The position numbers and the translations under genes are program-made. Below, piece after piece: positions 3,846 to 60,220 of a DNA stretch of 64,000 nucleotides. A model generated the notes under the pieces. The model searched no databases, was not told where the DNA came from, and was given only the letters and a program-made list of their open reading frames with translations. Each line of letters opens with the position of its first letter. The first letter of the stretch is position 1. Origin of the DNA: Tardiphaga robiniae (GTDB lineage Bacteria > Pseudomonadota > Alphaproteobacteria > Rhizobiales > Xanthobacteraceae); the NCBI RefSeq assembly GCF_001618955.1, contig NZ_LVYV01000001.1, forward strand, positions 1-64,000. The letters run 5' to 3'.

Positions 3846-4652
3846 ATGACATCCATTGCCCTCCGCAAGGACATCCCGTCGGCCGAGCTCGAAAAGTCGC
3901 AGATCGCGTTTTCCCATGTCACGCTGGATCTCGGCGGCAAGACGATCATCGAAAACGTCAGCCTCGACGTGAAGCCCGGCGAATTCCTCTGCATCATCGG
4001 CGCCTCCGGCTGTGGCAAGACCACGGCGCTGCGCCTCGCGGCCGGCCTGTACCAACCGACATCCGGACATGTCAGCTTCGACGGCGAACCCATGCGCGCG
4101 CCGCGGCGCGATGTCGCCATCGTGTTCCAGGATTACGGCAAGGCGCTGCTGCCATGGCGCACCGCCGCCGGAAATGTCGCGCTGGCGCTGGAAACCATCG
4201 GCATGCCCAAGGCCCAGCGCCCGGCGCGCATCGACGAACTGTTGAAGAAGGTCGGCCTGCCTAATCACGCCGCGAAATATCCTGCCGAGATGTCCGGCGG
4301 CATGCAGCAGCGGCTGCAGATCGCACGATGTCTGGCGCAGGAACCGAAAGCACTGCTGATGGACGAGCCGTTCGGCGCGCTCGATGCCATGACGCGGCAG
4401 GGTCTGCAGGACGAGGTCCTGTCACTGCTCGATGCCAGCAAGGCCACGGTGATCTTCGTCACTCATGATCTCGAAGAAGCCATTTATCTGGGCGACCGCG
4501 TGGTCGGCCTGCTGCCGCATCCCGGCCGTATCGGCATCGATCTTCCGATAAACCTGCCGCGCCCCCGCGATCAGTTGACCACGCGCGAGAACCCGGAATT
4601 CCTGCGCCTGCGCCGCGAATTGTTCGATTTCATCAAGGCATCGGAAGCATGA
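3846..4652 (+). CDS. ABC transporter ATP-binding protein (NitT/TauT type)
   Basis: Cytoplasmic ATPase of 268 residues that powers the importer encoded by its neighbours. Walker A GASGCGKTT is at residues 52-60, the Q-loop lies near VFQDYGKALLPW, the signature is MSGGMQQRLQIARCL, Walker B is ALLMDEPFGALD and the H-loop is VTHDLEEA. All catalytic elements are intact. The ATG at 3846 sits ten bases after GGGAG; a TTG at 3837 is too close to that site. The gene overlaps the next permease by four bases (ATGA at 4649), which indicates translational coupling. Confidence 0.9.
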   Translation: MTSIALRKDIPSAELEKSQIAFSHVTLDLGGKTIIENVSLDVKPGEFLCIIGASGCGKTTALRLAAGLYQPTSGHVSFDGEPMRAPRRDVAIVFQDYGKALLPWRTAAGNVALALETIGMPKAQRPARIDELLKKVGLPNHAAKYPAEMSGGMQQRLQIARCLAQEPKALLMDEPFGALDAMTRQGLQDEVLSLLDASKATVIFVTHDLEEAIYLGDRVVGLLPHPGRIGIDLPINLPRPRDQLTTRENPEFLRLRRELFDFIKASEA

Positions 4653-5413
4653 GATCCGAACGCCTGAAAGCGGCGATCCTTCCGATGAGCCTGCTCATCA
4701 TTCTGGAAGCCTGGGCACGCTCCGTCGATATCCACAGCGACGCGCTGGCGCCACCGAGCGCCGTGGTGCTGGCGCTGTTTCAGGCGTTCGGCGACGGCTC
4801 CATCCTGGCGGCGACGCGCGACACGCTGGCTTCGGCCTTTGCCGGCCTCGTGGTCGGCGGCGCCATCGGATTGTTCTTCGGAATTGCACTCGGTATCTTC
4901 CAGCCGCTGGATCGGCTGATGGAAGTCACCATCGAATCCCTGCGGCCGATCCCTTCCATCGCGCTGCTGCCGATCGCGCTGATCGCGCTCGGATTCGGCT
5001 ATCGCATGGAAATTGTGATCGTCGCTTTTGCCTGTGTCTGGCCAATCCTCATTCTCAGCCGCGCTGCGGTGCGCAGCATCGAGCCGCGACTGATCGAAGT
5101 CTCCCGCGCGCTGCGGCTGTCGCCAAGCGACCGCGTCCGCAAGATCATCATTCCCGCCGCACTGCCGCGCATCTTTCTCGCCTTCCGCCTCGCCGCAGGC
5201 ATCGCGCTGATCGTTGCCGTCACGGTTGAAATCGCGATCAATCCCATCGGGCTCGGCGCCGGAATCATGATTGCGCAGCAAGCATTGCGGCCGGACCTGA
5301 TGCTCGCTTATCTGCTGTGGATCGGCCTGATCGGCTATGCGCTCAATGCCGGATTGCTGGCAGCGCAGCAGCATCTGTTTGGCCCCGCAGCGCTGGCGGG
5401 AGAGGTCCGATGA
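4649..5413 (+). CDS. ABC transporter permease (NitT/TauT type), first copy
   Basis: Inner-membrane permease of 254 residues with about six membrane segments. It starts at the ATGA overlap with the ATPase gene. The BPD-type EAA-like loop that docks the ATPase is visible around EVSRALRLSPSDRVRKIIIP, and the N-terminal region matches SsuC-like proteins. It overlaps the second permease gene by four bases in the same way, so SBP, regulator, ATPase and two permeases form one translation-coupled operon. Two different permeases suggest a heterodimeric channel. Confidence 0.9.
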   Translation: MRSERLKAAILPMSLLIILEAWARSVDIHSDALAPPSAVVLALFQAFGDGSILAATRDTLASAFAGLVVGGAIGLFFGIALGIFQPLDRLMEVTIESLRPIPSIALLPIALIALGFGYRMEIVIVAFACVWPILILSRAAVRSIEPRLIEVSRALRLSPSDRVRKIIIPAALPRIFLAFRLAAGIALIVAVTVEIAINPIGLGAGIMIAQQALRPDLMLAYLLWIGLIGYALNAGLLAAQQHLFGPAALAGEVR

Positions 5414-8324: not shown

Positions 8325-9098
8325 TTACGCCGCGGCGAGCTGATCCAGCCGGTCGGTGGACAGCAGCCGTACGCCATCGGGCACCACGACAACGGTCTTT
8401 TCCTTGGCGAGCTTGGTCAGGGTGCGGCTGACAGTTTCGATGGTCAGGCCGAGATAGTCAGCAATGTCCTGCCGGCTCATAGGCAGCGGAACGTTGACCG
8501 ACTTCGAGCCGATGCGGCCATAGCGCGCCTGCAAATTCAGCAGGAAGGCGGCCACCTTCTCGTCGGCGGTGCGGCGGCCGAGCAGCAGCATCTGGTCCTG
8601 CGCGAGCGAGAGCTCATGGCCGGCAAATTCATGCAGGCGACGCAAGAGATGCGGCTTGCCATCGACATAGCTGAGAAACTGGGCGCGGGAGAAACGGCAG
8701 ACGCGCACCGACGTCACGGCCTCGGCGGCGACGCCGTAGCGGTCCATCAGCGCAAGTCCGAGGAAGTCACCGGGCAGCGCGAAGCCGACGATCTGGCGAC
8801 GGCCATCAGGTAGCGACTTGTAGAGCCGGACGATGCCTTCGGTCACGTTGAACACGCTACCGGCCAACGCGCCCTGATCGAACAGCATGGCCTTGGCCGG
8901 GAAATTCTTGACCTGGCTGAGGCGATCGAGCTCGTCGAGTTCCGCCGGTTCCAATGCGCCGCAGACGCTGAACAGGCGCACCTTGCAATCGTCGCAGCCG
9001 TTGGTGCTGCGGCCATGCCTGCAGTCGCGCTCTCCGGCACAGATCTCGGCCGCTGGTTCCGCGAAGGTCATGGCACTGTCCATTTCTGGTTTGGTCAC
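8325..9098 (-). CDS. Crp/Fnr regulator with cysteine cluster (FixK/FnrN/AadR-type)
   Basis: Cytoplasmic oxygen-responsive regulator of 257 residues. Cysteines at 35, 38 and 46 (CX2C-X7-C) plus C134 match the 4Fe-4S ligand pattern of FnrN-like proteins; C20 and C26 are extra. A cyclic-nucleotide-like beta barrel follows (about 50-165). The helix-turn-helix has SRQDIADYLGLTIETVSRTL, carrying the E..SR residues that read TTGAT half-sites. It is transcribed away from two Fnr-type boxes at 9132-9170, so autoregulation is likely. AadR, FixK1 and FnrN cannot be told apart from sequence alone. Confidence 0.9.
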   Translation of the reverse strand: MTKPEMDSAMTFAEPAAEICAGERDCRHGRSTNGCDDCKVRLFSVCGALEPAELDELDRLSQVKNFPAKAMLFDQGALAGSVFNVTEGIVRLYKSLPDGRRQIVGFALPGDFLGLALMDRYGVAAEAVTSVRVCRFSRAQFLSYVDGKPHLLRRLHEFAGHELSLAQDQMLLLGRRTADEKVAAFLLNLQARYGRIGSKSVNVPLPMSRQDIADYLGLTIETVSRTLTKLAKEKTVVVVPDGVRLLSTDRLDQLAAA

Positions 9099-19550: not shown

Positions 19551-19683
19551 GGATATGAGTTTCCCAAGGTCCTGAGAGACGCTGGCCGGGAGGCGCGACA
19601 ATGTTTGGCAAGGCTGCGCAAGCGTTTGATACATCAACAGTTTTCGCAGCTGCCCAGCCGGGCATTGCCCGATCACAGTGCCT

Positions 19684-20715
19684 ATGAGCGCCATCTCCCC
19701 ATGCAGCTGCGGGATCGATGTCCACGCGCATGTCGTGCCCTCCTCCTTCCCGTCCTACCTGGGCGCGGCGATGCCAGCCGACTGGCCGTCGATGGCGGAT
19801 GCCAAACCCTGCCACAAGCATGTGATGATGGCCGGCCGCATCTATCGCACGGTGTCGGATCGCTGCTGGGATGTCGCCAAGCGCGTCGCGGATATGGCGG
19901 AGATGGGACTCGGCGTGCAGGCCATTTCGCCGATGCCGGAGCTGCTGTCCTATTGGATGGCGCCCGAACCGGCCGGTGACCTGCTGCGCTACATCAACGA
20001 CCAGATGGCCGAGATGATCGCGCATTCCGGTGGCCGCCTCGTCGCCCTCGGCGCGGTACCGCTGCAGGACATCGACCGCGCCATTGCCGAGCTGCATCGG
20101 CTGAAGCACGAACTCAGCTTTGCGGGCATCGAGATCGGCAGCAACATCAACGGCAAGCCGATCGGGTCTCCCGACTTCGATGGATTCTTCGCCCAGGTCG
20201 AGAAGCTCGACATGGCGGTGTTCGTCCACGCCTTGCGACCATGCGGCATGGACCGCCTCGTCGGTCCGGCGCAATTGCAGCAGGTGCTGGCCTATCCGAC
20301 CGATGTCGGCCTCGCTGCCGCATCGGTGATCACCTCGAACCTCTTGCTGCGCCACCCGCGCCTGCGCATGGCGTTCAGCCACGGCGGCGGCACGCTCGCG
20401 TCGCTGCTGCCGCGGCTTCAAGAGGGATATCAGGTGTTCCCGGTATTGCAGGAGAGCATCCAGGAATCGCCGACCCTGCAGGCACGCCGGCTCTATTACG
20501 ACGCGCTGGTCTATGACGACCCGACGCTGCTGCATCTGATCGCCAAGTTCGGCGCGACGCAGATCATGCTCGGCACAGACTACCCGTTCGCATTTCATGA
20601 TCGCACTCCGGTGGCGCGCGCCACATCGGCCATCAGCGACGAGGCCACGCGCAATCTCGTCCTTCATGCCAATGCAAGACGTTTCCTCGGCCTTGACGAG
20701 CAGGCTCCGCAATGA
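19684..20715 (+). CDS. Amidohydrolase family decarboxylase (ACMSD-like)
   Basis: A 343-residue metal-dependent enzyme of the amidohydrolase_2 family, like 2-amino-3-carboxymuconate-6-semialdehyde decarboxylase and related non-oxidative decarboxylases. The metal site is seen as IDVHAHVVP near the N-terminus, FVHALRP, FSHGGG and the aspartate in LGTDYPF. The start is ATG 19684 or GTG 19678; neither has a strong ribosome site. It overlaps the dioxygenase gene by four bases (ATGA), so the two are translationally coupled. In this cluster it probably decarboxylates a ring-cleavage product or an aromatic acid. Confidence 0.88.
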   Translation: MSAISPCSCGIDVHAHVVPSSFPSYLGAAMPADWPSMADAKPCHKHVMMAGRIYRTVSDRCWDVAKRVADMAEMGLGVQAISPMPELLSYWMAPEPAGDLLRYINDQMAEMIAHSGGRLVALGAVPLQDIDRAIAELHRLKHELSFAGIEIGSNINGKPIGSPDFDGFFAQVEKLDMAVFVHALRPCGMDRLVGPAQLQQVLAYPTDVGLAAASVITSNLLLRHPRLRMAFSHGGGTLASLLPRLQEGYQVFPVLQESIQESPTLQARRLYYDALVYDDPTLLHLIAKFGATQIMLGTDYPFAFHDRTPVARATSAISDEATRNLVLHANARRFLGLDEQAPQ

Positions 20716-26860: not shown

Positions 26861-26936
26861 GGCCCGGTGGCGGAAATGTCTACGCGGGAGCGATGCATCG
26901 CTCTTTATCCTGGTTCAAGTCCAGGCTGGGCCTCCA
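26861..26936 (+). tRNA. tRNA-like sequence with palindromic anticodon arm (possible degenerate tRNA)
   Basis: A 76-base element. It has a 7-bp acceptor (GGCCCGG with CTGGGCC), an encoded TCCA end, a perfect T-arm (CCTGG-TTCAAGT-CCAGG) and a short D-arm (GCG/CGC). The D-loop lacks the usual GG. The anticodon arm is the 16-base palindrome GAGCGATGCATCGCTC, giving a loop of six or fewer bases and no readable standard anticodon. The variable region is short. It could be a decayed tRNA or a tRNA-like RNA with another use; the intact T-arm and CCA argue against simple decay. Confidence 0.45.
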
Positions 26937-39206: not shown

Positions 39207-39476
39207 CGGCTCACATCAACGATACGTCAGGCCGTTCGCGACAGGGTTGATCGTTGGTTATCGTTTTTGCGCGGCAAAAGTGCAGCACGCAGCAGAGCTG
39301 CCGCATGGGTAGATAGGAATGCGCGAAAAGATACCAGTTTGCACTTCCGTAAGCATGCTGAGCGATAAAGCGGGGATGCGGTATGCTCATCCGCCAGGCG
39401 GTATTTACGTCTCCTTACGCAATTCCCCCTAGCTTCGCCCGCAATCGCGGCATTCCCGCCGTTGCGGTATCGGTTC

Positions 39477-41879
39477 ATGTTGAAGGTCTATAATTGCATT
39501 GCGACGGCCCACGATCTGAGACTCGTGGTGCTCGCAGCCCTCATCTGCGCGCTTGCATCCTTCGCTGCGGTCAACCTGTTGCGCCACGCTCGCGGATCGA
39601 GCGGCCAGATGCGTGGCATATGGTTGATGGTGTCCGCGATCTCCATCGGGTTCGGAATTTGGGCAACGCACTTCGTTGCGATGCTGGCCTTCTCGCCGGG
39701 AATTCCAAGCGGCTACAATATCATTCTGACCCTCCTGTCGCTGGTCGCGGCGATCCTGCTGACCGGCGCTGGACTCGCGGTATCATTGCTGCCGAACTGG
39801 CGGCACGGACCATTGCTTGGTGGCGCCATCGTCGCCGGCGGCATCGCCGCGATGCATTACACCGGCATGGCAGCACTCGAAATCCCCGGGATTATCCTGT
39901 GGGATCCGGTGCTCGTCATCGTATCGATCTTGCTTGGTGCGCTGATTGGCGCGGCGGCTCTTCCCGTGGCTCTCTATGGCACCGAGGAGAAATGGAAAAT
40001 CAGCGGCGCCGTGCTGTTGACGCTGGCGATCTGCAGCCACCATTTCACCGCGATGGGCGCGGTCTCGATCATCCCCGACCCCACCGTAGAAGTTTCCCAA
40101 CTGGCCGTGCCCGCCGGATGGCTCGCAACCGGTGTCGCGCTCGCAAGCTTTGCCATCATCGGAATGGCGCTGGCCGGCATCATACTCGATATCCGTGACC
40201 GCCGACGCTCGGAGCTTGAGGCCGACCGTATGCTCGGCCTTGCCAATGCCGCGGTCGAGGGCCTGCTGGTCTGTGACGGCAGCGAAGTCGTCACCGTCAA
40301 TACCAGCTTCGCGACTCTCGCAGGCTCATCCGCTACGAAGTTCGTCGGCACCAGGCTGGAAAGCTGTTTTCCGGAAGACATCTCGCGCAGGAAATTGCTC
40401 ACTCACCCGAACCAGCCGATCGAAGCCAGTTTGCGCCATCGCGATGGCTCGGTGATTCCCGTCGAGGTGATCTTGCGGCCGATCGATTTCGCCGGACGGC
40501 CACATCAGGTGATCGCCGTTCGCGACCTGCGGGCGCGCAAGAAAGCAGAACAGCACATCCGCTATCTCGCCCAACACGACGCACTGACATCGCTGCCCAA
40601 CCGCGGCCATTTCAACGAACGGATCGATCAGGAAATCACGGCACTGACAGACGGCAAGAAGCTCGCCGTGCTCTACCTCGATCTCGACCGCTTCAAGGAA
40701 GTCAACGACCTGTTCGGCCATGCCGCCGGCGACAAGGTGCTGCAGACCGCAGCGTCACGTATCACGGCAATGCTCAGAAAAGGGCAGATGATGGCCCGCC
40801 TCGGCGGCGATGAATTCGCCATTCTGTTGCCGGGTCTGGCAAATGCCGACGCAGCGGGACGCCTCGCCGAGGAAATCCTCCAAACGCTGCGCGCCAGGGA
40901 CGCAGCGGATAGCGACGGCATCTCGAGCAGCATCGGCATCGCAGTTTGTCCCGACGATGCCATGGATCCAGAGACGCTTCTTAACCATGCGGACACTGCG
41001 CTTTATCGAGCCAAGACTGAGGGCCGCGCCACCTATCGTTTCTTCGAGGCCGAAATGGGCGAAGCGGTTCGCGATCGGCGAATGCTCGAGCACGATTTGC
41101 GTCACGCCATCGCCGGCAATCAGATGAAGCTGGCTTATCAGCCGCAAGAAGACATTCAGAACGGAACGGTCATCGGCTTCGAGGCGCTGCTGCGTTGGGC
41201 GCATCCGGTACGCGGCAACGTGCCGCCCGATATCTTCATTCCCGTTGCCGAGGAGACCGGCGCGATTCTCGACATTGGCGAATGGGTGCTGCGCACCGCC
41301 TGCCAGGAAGCCGCGAGCTGGAAGCAGCCACTCACCATCGCCGTCAACGTATCCGCAGTGCAGATCTATCACGACAATTTCGTCGCAATCGTCCATGAGA
41401 TCCTGCTGGAAACGGGCTTACCCGCGCACCGGCTCGAACTGGAGATCACGGAAACGGCCCTGATCCGCGATTTCGATCGCGCGCTCTCCACCCTGCGCAG
41501 GATCAAGGCGCTTGGCGTTCACATCGCAATGGATGATTTCGGCACCGGCTATTCGTCACTGTCGAACTTGCGTGCCTTTCCATTCGACAAGATCAAGATC
41601 GACGGCTCGTTCATCAAATCGGTCAACACCAACAGCCAGGCAGCGGCGATCGTGCGGGCGGTGCTCGGTCTCGGTCGCGGATTGGGACTTCCCGTGCTGG
41701 CCGAAGGCGTTGAGACCGAAGCGGAACTTCAGTTCTTGCGCGATGAGAGTTGCGACGAGGTCCAAGGCTATCTGCTCGGACGGCCCGCTCATATCGAGCA
41801 TTTCCTGGACATCACCCAGGGCAAGACAACGACAACAGCCACAGCGACGATCGTTAAAGACTTAGCTGCCACGGCATAG
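39477..41879 (+). CDS. MHYT-PAS-GGDEF-EAL cyclic-di-GMP protein
   Basis: An 800-residue inner-membrane signalling protein. The N-terminal MHYT domain (seven membrane segments, about residues 1-230) has three motif copies: THFVAM, MHYTGM and HHFTAM, thought to bind copper and sense oxygen, CO or NO. A PAS domain follows (about 245-360). Then comes GGDEF (GGDEF at 443-447, intact) and EAL (EAL at 569-571, intact, with the downstream metal-binding motifs ITETALI and DDFGTGYSS). Both cyclase and phosphodiesterase activity are possible. The start is ATG at 39477. It stands alone, with a 270-base featureless gap upstream. Confidence 0.93.
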   Translation: MLKVYNCIATAHDLRLVVLAALICALASFAAVNLLRHARGSSGQMRGIWLMVSAISIGFGIWATHFVAMLAFSPGIPSGYNIILTLLSLVAAILLTGAGLAVSLLPNWRHGPLLGGAIVAGGIAAMHYTGMAALEIPGIILWDPVLVIVSILLGALIGAAALPVALYGTEEKWKISGAVLLTLAICSHHFTAMGAVSIIPDPTVEVSQLAVPAGWLATGVALASFAIIGMALAGIILDIRDRRRSELEADRMLGLANAAVEGLLVCDGSEVVTVNTSFATLAGSSATKFVGTRLESCFPEDISRRKLLTHPNQPIEASLRHRDGSVIPVEVILRPIDFAGRPHQVIAVRDLRARKKAEQHIRYLAQHDALTSLPNRGHFNERIDQEITALTDGKKLAVLYLDLDRFKEVNDLFGHAAGDKVLQTAASRITAMLRKGQMMARLGGDEFAILLPGLANADAAGRLAEEILQTLRARDAADSDGISSSIGIAVCPDDAMDPETLLNHADTALYRAKTEGRATYRFFEAEMGEAVRDRRMLEHDLRHAIAGNQMKLAYQPQEDIQNGTVIGFEALLRWAHPVRGNVPPDIFIPVAEETGAILDIGEWVLRTACQEAASWKQPLTIAVNVSAVQIYHDNFVAIVHEILLETGLPAHRLELEITETALIRDFDRALSTLRRIKALGVHIAMDDFGTGYSSLSNLRAFPFDKIKIDGSFIKSVNTNSQAAAIVRAVLGLGRGLGLPVLAEGVETEAELQFLRDESCDEVQGYLLGRPAHIEHFLDITQGKTTTTATATIVKDLAATA

Positions 41880-50021: not shown

Positions 50022-51230
50022 TTAGCGACTGAGCGCCATCGCCGCGTCGGAACGGCGCGGCTTGCGATAGCCGATCAGCAGCGGACCGAATGAGACAGCG
50101 AAGCCGATAAAGGCCGCGACCCACGTCAATGCTGCAACATGGAGCAGCGGCGGACTGTAAGCCGGCTCGATCACGGCGCCGATCCGCGCCAGTGCCGCCA
50201 CGATGACGGCAGCATAGATCATCAGCGTCGTGCGTGAGGCGTGCAGTGCCTGGCCAGTATGCCCCAGTGTTGCCCGGCTCATGACAGCCAGCGTCATCAC
50301 GCCGGCCGCACCTGCCATCCATGCATGCAAGCCGGCGCTGGGCACTACCCATCCTGCTGCCGCTGCGGCATTCAGCAGGAAACCCAGCGGCACGAAAGCG
50401 TAACCAATATGCAGGATCAGCAACAGTCCCTCGCGCCAAGTACGATCGCCGGCCCAGCGCGCCAGACGTATCATGTGCAGCAAGCCGACCAGCGCGAGAG
50501 CCGCTCCCGTTGGTTCGCCAAAGGGCCGCGCGATCCACAGCACCAGCGCGGCGGCACTGACGGCGATGACGATCATATCGAAACGCGCAAACGGCACTGG
50601 CAGCCGACCAGGATTCTCGCGTACCAGCCAGTTGCGGGTGAAGCTCGGAATGATCCGGCCGCCGATCAGCGAGATCAGCAACACAACGACCGCGACGCCG
50701 ATCCGGATGCTGATGTCTGCGACGCCAGCAAGATGAGCTTCAACATGAAAGGCGATGTTGCCGACCAGCAGGAAGGCGACTATGCCGACCACTGGCAGAT
50801 TACGCCAGTTGCGGCCCGCCGCGATCTCGCGGGTTGCAGCGGCGGCGACCAGCGTCAGGAAACTCACATCGACCAGCATCGCTATGAGCCAGCCGGTATA
50901 GGCCGAAAACGTCAGACAAATCCGTCCCGCGATCCAGAGGACGACCAGCCCGAGCAATGGCAAGCCGCGGATCGGCAACCGGCCGGTCCAGTTCGGAATG
51001 GCTGTGAACAAAAAGCCGGTGACCACGGCCGACATGAAGCCGAACAGCATCTCGTGAATGTGCCAATCGCGCGGCGCAAAACCGGTGGCCAGCGCCAGCC
51101 GGCCATGGAAGGCCGGCACCCAGACCAGAATTCCCAAGCCGGCATAATACGCACCGAGCAGGAAAAAGGGGCGGAAGCCGGCCGAGAGCAACGGCCAATC
51201 GGCGATGGAGCGAACACGAAGAAGCGTCAT
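50022..51230 (-). CDS. nnrS: NnrS family membrane protein
   Basis: A 402-residue inner-membrane protein with about 12 hydrophobic segments. NnrS-family features are seen: GFRPFFLLGAYYAGLGILVW, then DWHIHEMLFGFMSAVVTGFLFTAIPNWTGRLP, then GGRIIPSFTRNW; the conserved histidines are haem and copper ligands in studied members. NnrS protects against nitric oxide stress and is typically regulated by NnrR. It lies 24 bases after the pseudoazurin gene on the same strand, so the two share a transcript with an NnrR-type box upstream. Confidence 0.93.
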   Translation of the reverse strand: MTLLRVRSIADWPLLSAGFRPFFLLGAYYAGLGILVWVPAFHGRLALATGFAPRDWHIHEMLFGFMSAVVTGFLFTAIPNWTGRLPIRGLPLLGLVVLWIAGRICLTFSAYTGWLIAMLVDVSFLTLVAAAATREIAAGRNWRNLPVVGIVAFLLVGNIAFHVEAHLAGVADISIRIGVAVVVLLISLIGGRIIPSFTRNWLVRENPGRLPVPFARFDMIVIAVSAAALVLWIARPFGEPTGAALALVGLLHMIRLARWAGDRTWREGLLLILHIGYAFVPLGFLLNAAAAAGWVVPSAGLHAWMAGAAGVMTLAVMSRATLGHTGQALHASRTTLMIYAAVIVAALARIGAVIEPAYSPPLLHVAALTWVAAFIGFAVSFGPLLIGYRKPRRSDAAMALSR

Positions 51231-51254: not shown

Positions 51255-51698
51255 TTACTTTGCAGCGACTTTCTCGAACAACGTCGCGAACACTGTCTTG
51301 GCCTTGCCGGGATGGGTCACGGCCTTGGCTTCGGCCGCATTGGTTGGCGCACCGACCACCACCAGTCCTACCATGCCCATGCCGTAATGTGGCGCGCATT
51401 TCACGCCGTAGACGCCGGGCTTGTCGAAGGTCACCACGAGGTCCTGGCTCATCTTGCCAACGAAGGGCGTCGCATCGGCGGGCAGCATGCCTTTGACCGA
51501 TTCAACGCTGTGCGCCTTGTCGGTCGACACGAATTTCACGGTATCACCGGGCTGCACATTGACCAGTGCGGGCTCGAACACCATTGCGGTCCCGTCGGCG
51601 CCCTTGTTGAGCATTTTGACCTCGACCTCCGCAGCGCCAGCGGCGCCTGTCAGAGCGAAAAGGATGGCAGCGGTTGCAAGCATGAAAGCCTTGCGCAT
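51255..51698 (-). CDS. Pseudoazurin
   Basis: A 147-residue periplasmic blue copper protein that carries electrons, typically to copper nitrite reductase or nitrous oxide reductase. The signal peptide is residues 1-22 (ending GAA). Type-1 copper ligands are His63, Cys101, His104 and Met109 in HSVES and CAPHYGMGM, all in canonical spacing. The gene is first of a two-gene unit with nnrS. The intergenic region holds the NnrR-type box at 51769-51782. No nitrite or nitric oxide reductase gene is in the window. Confidence 0.93.
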   Translation of the reverse strand: MRKAFMLATAAILFALTGAAGAAEVEVKMLNKGADGTAMVFEPALVNVQPGDTVKFVSTDKAHSVESVKGMLPADATPFVGKMSQDLVVTFDKPGVYGVKCAPHYGMGMVGLVVVGAPTNAAEAKAVTHPGKAKTVFATLFEKVAAK

Positions 51699-51768: not shown

Positions 51769-51782
51769 TTGCGCCAGCGCAA
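51769..51782. promoter_or_regulatory. NnrR-type box
   Basis: TTGCG-CCAG-CGCAA is a perfect dyad matching the TTGCG-N4-CGCAA motif used by NnrR proteins in Rhodobacter relatives. It lies 71 bases ahead of the pseudoazurin gene and 70 bases ahead of nnrR. Confidence 0.75.
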
Positions 51783-51851: not shown

Positions 51852-52559
51852 ATGTCGGCGGTCGACAGCTCCATGGTCGCGCATCTGCCGCTGTTCGAGA
51901 GTCTCTACACCGCAGCCTGCGAGGCGATCCTGCGCGAGACGCATTCGATCCGCGTCCCGAAGAACAAAGTGATTTTCGAGCAGGGCGAGGACGTCCATTC
52001 GTTCTATCTGCTGCTCCATGGCCATATCCGCGCGACCAAGATGACGCCCGCCGGCGAACAGGTGATCGTGCGCTACGTCGCGACCGGCGAGATCTTCGGG
52101 ATCGGTCAGGCCATGGGGCTGACGACTTATCCGGCAACCGCAACGGCGGTGGATGACAGCGTGGTTCTGGTGTGGCCCACCACGATCTGGACGCGGCTGG
52201 TTGCCGACTATCCCGCCCTCGCCGCCAATACGCTCAAGACCGTCGGTAGCCGACTGCAGGAGGCTCATACGCGTGTGGTCGAGATGTCGACCCAGCAGGT
52301 CGAGCAGCGCGTTGCTCACGCCCTGCTCCGGCTGATCAACCAATCAGGCCGCAAGACCGCGCAAGGCGTCGAGATCGATTTCCAGCTGAGCCGGCAGGAT
52401 ATCGCTGAAATGACCGGCGCCACGGTCTTCACCGTGAGCCGCACGCTCAGCACCTGGGAATAGCGCGGGCTGATCGAAAGCAGCCGGCAGCGCATCGTGC
52501 TGCGCGAACCCGAGACATTGCGTGCGCTCGCCGACGCTCTTCCAGGTGATGATGCGTAG
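51852..52559 (+). pseudogene. nnrR: NnrR-type Crp/Fnr regulator interrupted by in-frame amber codon
   Basis: NO-responsive Crp/Fnr-family regulator. A 203-residue product reads from ATG 51852 (after GGAGAACAC) to TAG at 52461-52463. Without a frame change, reading continues for 31 more codons (RGLIESSRQRIVLREPETLR and ALADALPGDDA) to TAG 52557-52559; these are the expected C-terminal wing residues. So one codon, most likely CAG, became TAG. The cyclic-nucleotide fold and helix-turn-helix (LSRQDIAEMTGATVFTVSRTL) are intact; there is no Fnr cysteine cluster. The truncated protein may still bind DNA weakly, or the stop may be suppressed, or it may be a sequencing error. Divergent from pseudoazurin-nnrS. 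Confidence 0.8.
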
Positions 52560-54564: not shown

Positions 54565-54928
54565 TCAATCTCGTGCCTGCGGGACATTCGGAAAGCCAGT
54601 CAGTCAGACAACATCGGAGGCATCCCGATATTCCCTTATCCCAGGTGTCGGTGACTGCGGCGCTTACGCGCATTGCAGCGCTTGTCCAGTGACCAATCGT
54701 TTGGCGCAGGCGGGACGCCGCACCTCATTTAGAACGATTACAAATTATCCCGACGCCCCTTGGTGCGCAGATCACACACCTTGGGCATATCCCTCGAAGT
54801 TCGATTGATTCTAAACGCCATCTAATTCGCGCCTAATACTCCGAATTGCAGATGTGTCCAAGTGTTTCCAGGGAAACACAAGGACCGCCGGCATCTGCAT
54901 GAGCGGAGAATATTTCAGGGGCGTAGTA
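54565..54928. other. 364-base divergent control region with iron-response-like site
   Basis: Lies between the two-component operon (minus) and the TonB receptor (plus). TTTAGAA-CGA-TTACAAA at 54728-54744 is an imperfect dyad like the iron control element bound by Irr in rhizobia, and a second half-site TTCTAAA lies near 54810. No gene seen. Confidence 0.4.
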
Positions 54929-57232
54929 ATGACTTCCAGGACTTCTATCGGGGGGCGCGACACAGCGGCGCGCAAAGCTTTTCTGATTTCGACGAGCGCG
55001 GCGGCCATCATCACGGCGGGATTTTGCATCGCAGAGCCGGCGATTGCACAGAATGCGAATTCCGGCGCATCGACATTGCCGCCGGTACAGATCGACGCTC
55101 CCAGCGCGCCGCGCGTACGCCGTGCCCAGCCGCAACGCGCCGCATCCGGCCGCGTCGCACGGACACATACCGTTGCGCCGCAGCCGGTTCGCCAGCCGCT
55201 CAGCGTCAACCCTCAGGACGCACAGTCCGGCCAGGTCGGCTACATCACTCGCAATATTTCGAGCGGCACCAGAACCAACACCGCGCTCCTCAACGTGCCG
55301 CAATCAGTCACGGTGCTGACGAAGGAATTCATCCGGGATCAGGATTTCCGCAGCATCGGCGAAGCGGTTCGCTATGTGCCGGGCGTCGTGCCGCATCAGG
55401 GCGAAGGCAATCGCGATGACGTCGTCATCCGCGGGCAGCGCACCAATGCCGACTTCTTCATCGACGGTATTCGCGACGACGTGCAGTATTTCCGCGATCT
55501 CTATAACACCCAGCGCATCGAGGTCCTGAAGGGACCGAATGCCATGATCTTCGGCCGCGGCGGCGGCGGCGGCGTCATCAATCGCGTGCAGAAGGAAGCC
55601 GACGGCGTTTCGATCCGTGAGGTAACTGTTCAGGGCGGATCGTTCGACAACAAGCGCGTGACGATCGATACCGGCGGCGCCGTGAACGAGAATGTCGCGG
55701 CGCGCATCAACGCGATGTATGAGAATTCCGGAACCTATCGCGACTACGGCCACCTCGAGCGTTATGGCATCAATCCGACCGTGACGATTCGCGGCGAGGA
55801 TACCAAGGTCAAGCTCAGCTACGAATATCTGCATGACGACCGCACCGCGGATCGCGGCATCCCGGCACAGGGCACTGTGCCAGCGCCCACGAATGCACGC
55901 CCGACCGTGCCGTTCGCGACCAATGCTTCGACCTTCTTCGGCAATCCGGACCAGAGCTATTCGAAGCAGGACGTCCACATTGCCAACGCCTTCATCGACC
56001 ACGATTTCAATAATGGCCTGACGGTCAAGAACTCGTCACGCTATGCGAACTACGACAAGTTCTACCAGAACGTTTTCCCGACCACGGGAACGTTCGTCAC
56101 CCCCGGCGGCACCGCGTCCATCTCGGCCTACAACAACCTGGCTCAGCGCGAGAACCTGTTCAATCAGACCGACTGGACCTACAAGACCAATACCGGTCCC
56201 GTGCTGCACACGATCGTATTCGGTACCGAGTTCGGACGGCAGAACACTTTCAGCCTTCGCAACACCGGCCAGATCAACGGCGGCGCGACCTTGGTCGTTC
56301 CCGCGTCCAGCCCGACCACCTTTGCCCCGTGGTCGTTCATCCACAACAACGCCTCCGACAACAACTCCTATGCGACGCTCGATATCGCATCGGTCTATAT
56401 TCAGGACCAGATCGAGGTCAGCCGTTACCTGCAGTTCATCGGCGGCGTTCGTTACGATCGCTTCGACCTCACCTCGCAGAACCTCAATCCGGGCGGCACC
56501 GTAGACAGCCGTGTCGACAACCTTGTCTCGCCGCGCGCCGGCGTGATTATCAAGCCGGTCGACAACGTCTCGGTCTATGGCAGCTACAGCATTTCGTATC
56601 TGCCTAGCGCCGGCGACCAGTTCAGCTCGCTGACGCCATCGCTCGCCATCACCGTGCCGGAGAAGTTCATCAACAATGAAGTCGGCGTGAAGTGGGACAT
56701 CACCCCACGGCTGCAGGCCTCCGCGGCAATCTACGACCTCGACCGCGAAAATCAGCGCTTCATTCAGAACGGTCTGGTCGTCGCATTCGGAAAAACCAAC
56801 ACCAAAGGCGCCGAGCTCAGCCTGACCGGTTATGTCACCGATCAGTGGCAAGTCACCGGCGGCTACGCCTACACCGATGCGCGCATCGTCGATGCCAGCT
56901 CCGCCACGATCGTCCCAGGCAACCGCGTCGGCCTGGTGCCGCTCAACACCTTCACCATGTGGAACAAATATCAGTTCAACGACATGTGGGGTGCCGGCCT
57001 CGGTGTCATCCATTACGACGACTTCTTCGCCACGTCGGATGATACTGTGAAGCTGAAAGCCTTCACCCGCGTCGATGCCGCCGTCTACTTCCGGCTCGAC
57101 AAGACGTGGCGTGCCCAGCTGAACATCGAGAACCTGTTCGATACCAGCTACTACGCCACCGCCGATGCGGCCAACAACATCACGCCCGGCTCGCCGCGCG
57201 CGTTCCGGGCATCGGTGACGGCGAACTTCTAA
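54929..57232 (+). CDS. TonB-dependent siderophore receptor
   Basis: A 767-residue outer-membrane receptor that imports a ferric siderophore using TonB energy. The signal segment is residues 15-41 (AFLISTSAAAIITAGFCIAE ... AIAQ). The plug domain has NVPQSVTVLTKEFIRDQ, DDVVIRGQRTNADFFIDGIRD and RIEVLKGPNAMIFGRGGGGGVIN. The C-terminal barrel ends in phenylalanine (ASVTANF), as required for barrel insertion. It resembles the catecholate/ferrichrome group (FhuE/Fiu/BfrD). The ATG at 54929 follows AGGGGCG; an ATG at 54899 is an alternative. Divergent from a two-component system, with an iron-response-like site between. Confidence 0.92.
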   Translation: MTSRTSIGGRDTAARKAFLISTSAAAIITAGFCIAEPAIAQNANSGASTLPPVQIDAPSAPRVRRAQPQRAASGRVARTHTVAPQPVRQPLSVNPQDAQSGQVGYITRNISSGTRTNTALLNVPQSVTVLTKEFIRDQDFRSIGEAVRYVPGVVPHQGEGNRDDVVIRGQRTNADFFIDGIRDDVQYFRDLYNTQRIEVLKGPNAMIFGRGGGGGVINRVQKEADGVSIREVTVQGGSFDNKRVTIDTGGAVNENVAARINAMYENSGTYRDYGHLERYGINPTVTIRGEDTKVKLSYEYLHDDRTADRGIPAQGTVPAPTNARPTVPFATNASTFFGNPDQSYSKQDVHIANAFIDHDFNNGLTVKNSSRYANYDKFYQNVFPTTGTFVTPGGTASISAYNNLAQRENLFNQTDWTYKTNTGPVLHTIVFGTEFGRQNTFSLRNTGQINGGATLVVPASSPTTFAPWSFIHNNASDNNSYATLDIASVYIQDQIEVSRYLQFIGGVRYDRFDLTSQNLNPGGTVDSRVDNLVSPRAGVIIKPVDNVSVYGSYSISYLPSAGDQFSSLTPSLAITVPEKFINNEVGVKWDITPRLQASAAIYDLDRENQRFIQNGLVVAFGKTNTKGAELSLTGYVTDQWQVTGGYAYTDARIVDASSATIVPGNRVGLVPLNTFTMWNKYQFNDMWGAGLGVIHYDDFFATSDDTVKLKAFTRVDAAVYFRLDKTWRAQLNIENLFDTSYYATADAANNITPGSPRAFRASVTANF

Positions 57233-58546: not shown

Positions 58547-58579
58547 ATGCGGAGAAAACCTGCGTAGCTTAATTCTCCC

Positions 58580-60220
58580 GTGACCCTCTCCCGCACCGAA
58601 CTCACAGCAATCCTCATTGCACTCGCGACCACGCTCCTCGTGGCTGCGCCTGTCATCAGCATCGCGCTACTGGCGCTGCAGCCGGAGCCTGAGCTTTGGC
58701 AGCATCTGATCGCCTATGTATTGCCGCAGGCGCTGCGCGACACCGCAGCCCTCCTGATCGGCGTCGGTATCGTTACGCTCGCGGTCGGTGCCGGCACCGC
58801 ATGGCTGGTCTCGGCGCACGATTTCCCCGGCCGCGCGCTCATGCTCTGGCTCTTGCCGCTGCCGCTGGCGATTCCGACCTATCTCGCCGCTTACGTCTAT
58901 GTGGACCTGTTCGAGCCACTGGGTCTCGTCCATCGCGCATTGGCAACGGCAATGTCGTTGCCCGGCGCGATCGCGTGGCTGCCGAGCCTGCGTTCGTTGC
59001 CCGGCGCCGTCTTCGTGATCGGCATCGTGTTGTATCCTTACGTCTATCTCTCGGCCCGCGCGATGTTCCAGCATCGCAGCGCCGATTTTGCTGAAGCCGC
59101 GAAGATACTCGGTGCGGATCGCTGGACGACGTTCCGCCGTGTCTCGCTACCGATGGCGCGCCCCGCCCTCGCTGTGGGCCTCGCACTGGTATCGCTGGAA
59201 ACGCTGAACGATATCGGCGCCAGCGAATATCTGGGCATTCGCACGCTCACCGTCTCGGTTTTCACGACCTGGCTCAACCGCGGCAGTCTTGCAGGTGCTG
59301 CGCAGCTGTCATTGTTCATGCTCGCCATCGTCGGGGTGCTGATCGCCATCGAGCGCTTCGGCCGCCGCGAAGGCAGCGTGGAATTCTCTTCGGAGAATCC
59401 GCGGTTGGCACCGCGCACGCCTTTGACGGGCGCATACGGATGGCTTGCTTTCACCGCCTGTCTCATCCCTGCCCTGCTCGGCTTCGCCGTGCCCTTGCTC
59501 TATCTGCTGCGTGAGAGCCTGCGCCGCGGTCTGCTATCGATGGAAACGACGGTTTGGCGCGATGCCGGCCACACCATAGCGCTGGCCGCAATTGCCACGG
59601 GAGCCGCGCTGCTTCTCGGGCTCGTGGTGATCGTCGCTCAGCGCTGGCGTGGTTCGCGGCTGACCAACCTGTCGGTCGCTGTCGCCCAGACCGGCTATGC
59701 GCTGCCCGGAACGGTGCTGGCGCTGGGTCTGCTGACGCCGGTGCTGTTCATCGACAATGGATTCAGCAAGCTCGCCGGATGGCTCAGTCTCGCATCGCCC
59801 GGGCTTGTCATGGTCGGCTCCGGCGCCGCCGTGGTGATCGCCTATGTGATCCGGTTCCTGGCGGTGCCGACCGGTTTCATCAAGGCCGGCTTCGAGCACA
59901 TTCCCGTCGATTACGACGACAGCGCCCGCGCCGCCGGCGCGCCGGCAATCACCACACTGCGCGTGATTCAACTGCCGCTATTGCGTCCGGCATTGTTCGG
60001 CGCTGTCATCGTCGTCTTCGTAGATTGCCTGAAGGAATTGCCCGCAACGCTGTTACTGCGACCGCTCAATGTCGAAACGCTGGCGACTTCGATCTATCAA
60101 TATGCGAGCCGTGGCAGCTTTGAAGAAGGCGCCCTGGCCGCACTTCTCATCGTCGCTGCCAGCATCGGCCCGGTGGTCTGGCTGACACGCTTTGCAGATG
60201 TGCCGCAGGGGCCAGTGTAA
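58580..60220 (+). CDS. Ferric iron ABC transporter permease (FbpB-like, fused two-domain)
   Basis: A 546-residue inner-membrane permease with about 12 membrane segments, made of two fused permease domains as in FbpB/SfuB. Each half has an ATPase-docking EAA loop: EAAKILGADRWTTFRRVSLP in the first and DSARAAGAPAITTLRVIQLPL in the second. The GTG start at 58580 (MTLSRTELTA) has no strong ribosome site. No ATP-binding partner follows; the next gene is on the opposite strand and unrelated. The partner ATPase must be encoded elsewhere or be shared. Confidence 0.92.
   Translation: MTLSRTELTAILIALATTLLVAAPVISIALLALQPEPELWQHLIAYVLPQALRDTAALLIGVGIVTLAVGAGTAWLVSAHDFPGRALMLWLLPLPLAIPTYLAAYVYVDLFEPLGLVHRALATAMSLPGAIAWLPSLRSLPGAVFVIGIVLYPYVYLSARAMFQHRSADFAEAAKILGADRWTTFRRVSLPMARPALAVGLALVSLETLNDIGASEYLGIRTLTVSVFTTWLNRGSLAGAAQLSLFMLAIVGVLIAIERFGRREGSVEFSSENPRLAPRTPLTGAYGWLAFTACLIPALLGFAVPLLYLLRESLRRGLLSMETTVWRDAGHTIALAAIATGAALLLGLVVIVAQRWRGSRLTNLSVAVAQTGYALPGTVLALGLLTPVLFIDNGFSKLAGWLSLASPGLVMVGSGAAVVIAYVIRFLAVPTGFIKAGFEHIPVDYDDSARAAGAPAITTLRVIQLPLLRPALFGAVIVVFVDCLKELPATLLLRPLNVETLATSIYQYASRGSFEEGALAALLIVAASIGPVVWLTRFADVPQGPV

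Follow-up and report, generated by a model that had tools for sequence, protein, structure and literature searches.

A TAG codon lies in frame within nnrR, the gene for a regulator of the NnrR type, in a genome of Tardiphaga, and raises the question of whether the gene has been cut short, whether the stop is bypassed, or whether the sequence is in error. The 64 kb of DNA analysed (hereafter the window) form the start of contig 1 in this genome, which comprises 6.36 Mb in 56 contigs with a listed completeness of 100% and contamination of 0.04%. The window is syntenic with T. robiniae LMG 26467 (G003) and with two further Tardiphaga genomes (G015 and G017), with block identities of 84-96%; relatives were sampled at one genome per species. 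Translation of positions 51852-52559 gave 203 residues, one TAG and, up to the stop at 52557-52559, a further 31 residues (Table 1), bearing out the first-pass annotation, which had described a TAG after 203 codons with 31 open codons beyond it. The reading that we consider probable is that this is a recent, ordinary nonsense allele of nnrR in this Tardiphaga strain, the stop being unseen in any relative examined.

Table 1. Features of the nnrR locus, with coordinates relative to the window.
Feature	Coordinates	Strand	Remarks
nnrS, intact	50022..51230	-	PF05940, E 1.9e-109
Pseudoazurin gene, intact	51255..51698	-	TIGR02375, 146.5 bits vs cut-off 109.85
Palindromic Crp/Fnr-type box TTGCGCCAGCGCAA	51769..51782		Between nnrR and divergent pseudoazurin and nnrS; fits published FixK2 consensus
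nnrR open frame	51852..52463	+	203 codons, ends in premature TAG; cNMP-type sensor domain and helix-turn-helix up to recognition helix
In-frame TAG, codon 204	52461..52463	+	Next base C; sense codon in 80/80 related loci
Former nnrR 3' end, wing and C-terminal tail	52464..52559	+	Still open; outside main product now

The product of the interrupted gene belongs to the Crp/Fnr regulators, with a cNMP-type sensor domain and a Crp-type helix-turn-helix (PF00027, 62.8 bits; PF13545, 45.9 bits; both over cut-off). It is of the rhizobial NnrR type, being homologous to nnrR of Bradyrhizobium diazoefficiens, divergent from nnrS and sharing the box between them. Related loci were taken as the best 80 of 111 relatives, and over its 203 residues the window protein is 65-70% identical to 78 of these, mostly from Bradyrhizobium and Rhodopseudomonas. 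Among the loci B. diazoefficiens is represented by strain SZCCT0449 (L060); the type strain of PMC6710368 is not named there. The NnrR of B. diazoefficiens (blr7084) likewise belongs to the Crp/Fnr regulators, its gene diverges from nnrS, and a TTGCG-N4-CGCAA box is present, whereas the window copy ends after codon 203, sits beside a pseudoazurin gene and belongs to a genome without detected NirK or cNor. A more distant comparison is with DNR of Pseudomonas aeruginosa (3dkw), a Crp/Fnr protein that is NO-responsive. The window protein matches it by sequence, but only remotely (E 5e-13), and nine other solved sequences score above it.

As the first-pass annotation had proposed, the interrupted codon was compared with those of close relatives. 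Codon 204 is a sense codon in all 80 related loci (AGC in 50, CAG in 24, CAA in five and CGA in one, encoding Ser, Gln or Arg), and none of them stops before codon 230. The closest counterpart, NnrR of T. robiniae LMG 26467 (L013), is 98% identical over the 203 residues and has the same neighbours and the same box, but is full length at 235 residues with a sense codon at 204. All six other Tardiphaga copies found encode full-length proteins of 234-240 residues, leaving the window strain as the only one with a cut nnrR among the seven Tardiphaga genomes that carry the gene. A family-wide search with the full-length T. robiniae protein as query covered 391 genomes and gave matches in 175; among the matches listed, only the window copy has an internal stop (1/150). 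The stop is, as far as sampled, private to the window genome. Behind it the frame is more than chance, because the 31-residue peptide is identical to that of T. robiniae at 30 of 31 positions and no related locus stops before codon 230. A stop missing from close relatives and a downstream frame that is still conserved are what a nonsense allele presents. A second nnrR copy as a backup was considered and rejected, since the genome's second-best match is only 28% identical. In the open-licence literature searched, none of the titles listed reports a natural nnrR nonsense allele; one paper among them, PMC6515984, contains the terms nnrR, frameshift and pseudogene. Tardiphaga went unmentioned in the papers listed by a related search.

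What the truncated protein has lost can be read from its domain match. The HTH_Crp_2 match ends at profile position 47 of 70 and the complete winged helix is missing. This agrees with the first-pass annotation, in which the residues behind the TAG were taken to be the wing and tail after the helix-turn-helix. Crp/Fnr DNA-binding domains have a wing at the position of the lost residues. The full-length T. robiniae protein aligns to solved Crp/Fnr chains through residue 223, and against the solved chain 4byy it scores 86.7 bits, while the truncated protein of the window reaches 73.2 bits. Seven positions of the tail (G206, L207, R212, Q213, L217, R218 and P220) are invariant in 80/80 loci. In the proposed mechanism, the truncated NnrR would keep its sensor domain, dimer helix and recognition helix, with the wing hairpin and C-terminal tail gone, and most likely could not bind DNA properly, or would be degraded. 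Loss of DNA binding is likely since the missing tail corresponds to the conserved wing. The recognition helix is nevertheless retained and dN/dS is low (see below), both of which would fit a shortened NnrR that is still active, perhaps with altered specificity. Given the seven invariant positions and the wing normally found there, we regard such activity as highly unlikely.

The age of the stop was approached through the pattern of substitution. The dN/dS of the 203 codons against G003, G015 and G017 is 0.06, 0.13 and 0.11, respectively, and lies within the range of 0 to 0.20 for other window genes, in a set of 38 intervals picked by eye of which two are the nnrR halves and one has no homologue in the relatives. 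The part of the gene before the stop therefore behaves like other window genes, which leaves three options for the stop: a recent origin, an error or a tolerated change. Private nonsynonymous and synonymous changes in nnrR number 3:6 (4:6 with the stop included), compared with 98.5:479.5 in other genes (Fisher's test, p = 0.19 and p = 0.08, respectively). With no significant relaxation on this branch, the stop would be either young or an error. One of the private changes lies at residue 30, which is Thr in the window protein and Ala in 80/80 loci; it hints, if weakly, at relaxed constraint.

A sequencing or assembly error, in which the true codon is sense and nothing is broken, is the main rival to a nonsense allele. 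It would account for a single differing codon without other disruption, in a gene otherwise under purifying selection with its tail intact, and the assembly is in 56 contigs. However, among the flags that were followed, the rest being judged by eye, nnrR was the only recognisable window gene with a premature stop relative to the three relatives, so that the local error rate looks low. The change is moreover a substitution rather than an indel, and the listed completeness and contamination of the genome also speak against an error. Overall, we consider an error unlikely and continue to favour a nonsense allele.

Several other flags within the window were discounted as broken genes. An in-frame TAG at 58565 precedes a GTG start at 58580, and the flags near 4154-5410 and 19594-20712 are both upstream of plausible starts; at the latter, the window and T. 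robiniae share the position of the stop. Ten flagged ORFs of the relatives gave no Pfam match at E 0.01 and were therefore taken as antisense or chance frames.

A genuine stop might still be read through. The first-pass annotation had offered a suppressed stop as one outcome, for which no suppressor tRNA was found. Anticodons were read genome-wide: all 46 tRNAs above the Rfam cut-off lack a CUA anticodon, and none of the four weaker tRNA matches yielded an ARAGORN gene. Release factor 1 (RF1) is present, over cut-off. These results give no support to dedicated amber suppression. The same two observations count against genome-wide suppression or reassignment of the amber codon, as does the fact that several window ORFs terminate in TAG, and we regard its probability as close to nil.

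Low-level readthrough is a different matter. The base after the TAG is C, the genome holds a tRNA-Gln with a CTG anticodon (L111), Gln is the residue at codon 204 in the closest Tardiphaga relatives, and the frame beyond the stop is unbroken; a near-cognate tRNA-Gln(CUG) could thus decode UAG-C often enough to supply sufficient full-length NnrR. According to PMC5289835, tRNA-Gln misreads UAG in E. coli and +4C increases readthrough in yeast, but readthrough of UAG ranks below that of UGA, which counts against it here. An intact tail is equally expected of a young mutation. Moreover, no relative among the matches listed has a stop at codon 204, so nothing suggests selection for readthrough. On this balance, readthrough sufficient to restore the regulator seems improbable, and an ordinary nonsense allele remains our preferred reading.

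The window also encodes a tRNA-like RNA (26861-26936, + strand), whose CCA is encoded and which has a perfect T arm and an acceptor stem of 7 bp. ARAGORN finds no anticodon triplet in its anticodon arm ('tRNA-???'). In searches of the Rfam models it had no match to a tRNA model (whole genome, E<=10) and no match of any kind at E<=1. A 116-base query matched 92 of the 198 genomes of the family, with many matches confined to ~76-80 bases. The best 20 loci comprised 16 called 'tRNA-???', three called tRNA-Ala(TGC) and one uncalled. Comparison of the 16 distinct sequences shows preserved acceptor, D and T stems; base pairing in the anticodon stem is mostly maintained too, frequently through G-U pairs, although unpaired bases occur at two positions. 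This RNA looks more unusual than the nnrR stop.

If nnrR has been lost, the fate of its presumed targets may depend on the box that separates it from the divergent genes (Table 1). This box, described in the first-pass annotation as an intact NnrR-type box, is indeed intact at 51769-51782, and the three Tardiphaga relatives that were compared carry it without change. Its attribution to NnrR was less secure: the FixK2 consensus is also fitted, and hence the box is not specific evidence for NnrR. PMC6710368 gives this consensus as TTG(A/C)-N6-(T/G)CAA and reports that in B. diazoefficiens FixK2 directly activates both nnrR and the divergent nnrS, with a predicted box in the common promoter region. 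In L060, TTGCGCTATCGCAA begins 66 bases before nnrR, and the same motif is placed at position -66 of blr7084 in PMC6710368. A box fitting the FixK2 consensus is found within 200 bp upstream (<=200 bp) in 64/80 loci, compared with 0.5% of mononucleotide shuffles; the remaining 16 loci have none within this distance. The whole genome contains 19 palindromic boxes.

Since FixK2 activates nnrR and nnrS in Bradyrhizobium and the box fits its consensus, the targets may stay under oxygen control without NnrR. Candidate regulators are present. A FixK-like gene (L005) is intact, lies near ccoN and has FixK2 (4i2o) as its best PDB match. A second Crp/Fnr regulator within the window (8325-9098, - strand) is FnrL/FixK-like, has N-terminal cysteines and also has 4i2o as its best PDB match; it is a candidate for acting on the nnrR/nnrS box. 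Both proteins fall short of the curated cut-offs of the FixK and FnrL models, the scores being 120 bits for L005 and 157 bits for L002 against 300 bits. In the mechanism that we propose, pseudoazurin and nnrS would probably still be driven by oxygen-responsive regulators of the FixK/Fnr type through the shared TTGCG-N4-CGCAA box, and the strain would be deprived of the control layer that depends on NO without necessarily ceasing to express the two genes. By analogy with Bradyrhizobium, FixK-type control may sustain expression of nnrS and pseudoazurin. Both this continued control and the loss of DNA binding are steps of the explanation that we infer.

A further, rather doubtful extension of this mechanism is that NnrS and pseudoazurin have been uncoupled from NO sensing, with NnrR lost, FixK-type oxygen control kept and a trace of full-length NnrR possibly arising from a leaky UAG-C. 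Such a split would be unique to this strain among the seven Tardiphaga genomes in which both nnrR and nnrS were found.

The neighbours are as intact as the first-pass annotation held them to be, judging from their PF05940 and TIGR02375 matches. A homologue of nnrS is found in 72/80 loci, and pseudoazurin adjoins nnrR in only 3/80. Across Tardiphaga, nnrR and nnrS co-occur in the same 7 of 18 genomes, and neither was found in the other 11, of which five are <90% complete. In one genome (G006), nnrR and nnrS are widely separated.

Among denitrification proteins, NirK and cNor were sought. No NirK over cut-off was found in the 11 examined of the 18 Tardiphaga genomes, the window genome among them; two of these 11, neither being that of the window, have a weak match (76.5 bits, compared with a cut-off of 296.3). 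Nor was cNor found among the five PF00115 proteins of the window genome, which are two CtaD (one 0.05 bits under cut-off), one CyoB and two CcoN. With neither NirK nor cNor found, a role for NnrR in denitrification appears unlikely here, the loss of NnrR may cost little, and its regulon may be small. A lost or weakened NO response, as put forward in the first-pass annotation, is the outcome best supported; however, 'lost' may be too strong, because FixK2-type control may remain through the same box and NnrR may govern few genes. Should the stop prove real, the strain would offer a natural truncation of nnrR in a genome without detected NirK or cNor, and with it a natural experiment on whether FixK-type control by itself suffices for nnrS and pseudoazurin. 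Knowledge of NnrR itself, or of the genetic code, is not changed by it.

Comparison of the window with its relatives brought up two further genes with uneven divergence. The gene at 39462-41879 (+ strand) has a dS of 0.07 to G015, compared with 0.89 to G003 and 0.90 to G017, as if recombination had swapped its allele. A mosaic pattern of the same sort, though weaker, is seen at 54854-57232 (+ strand), which we take to be a receptor-like gene ahead of an iron-transport-like operon, where dS is 0.13 to G015 and 0.35-0.37 to G003 and G017.
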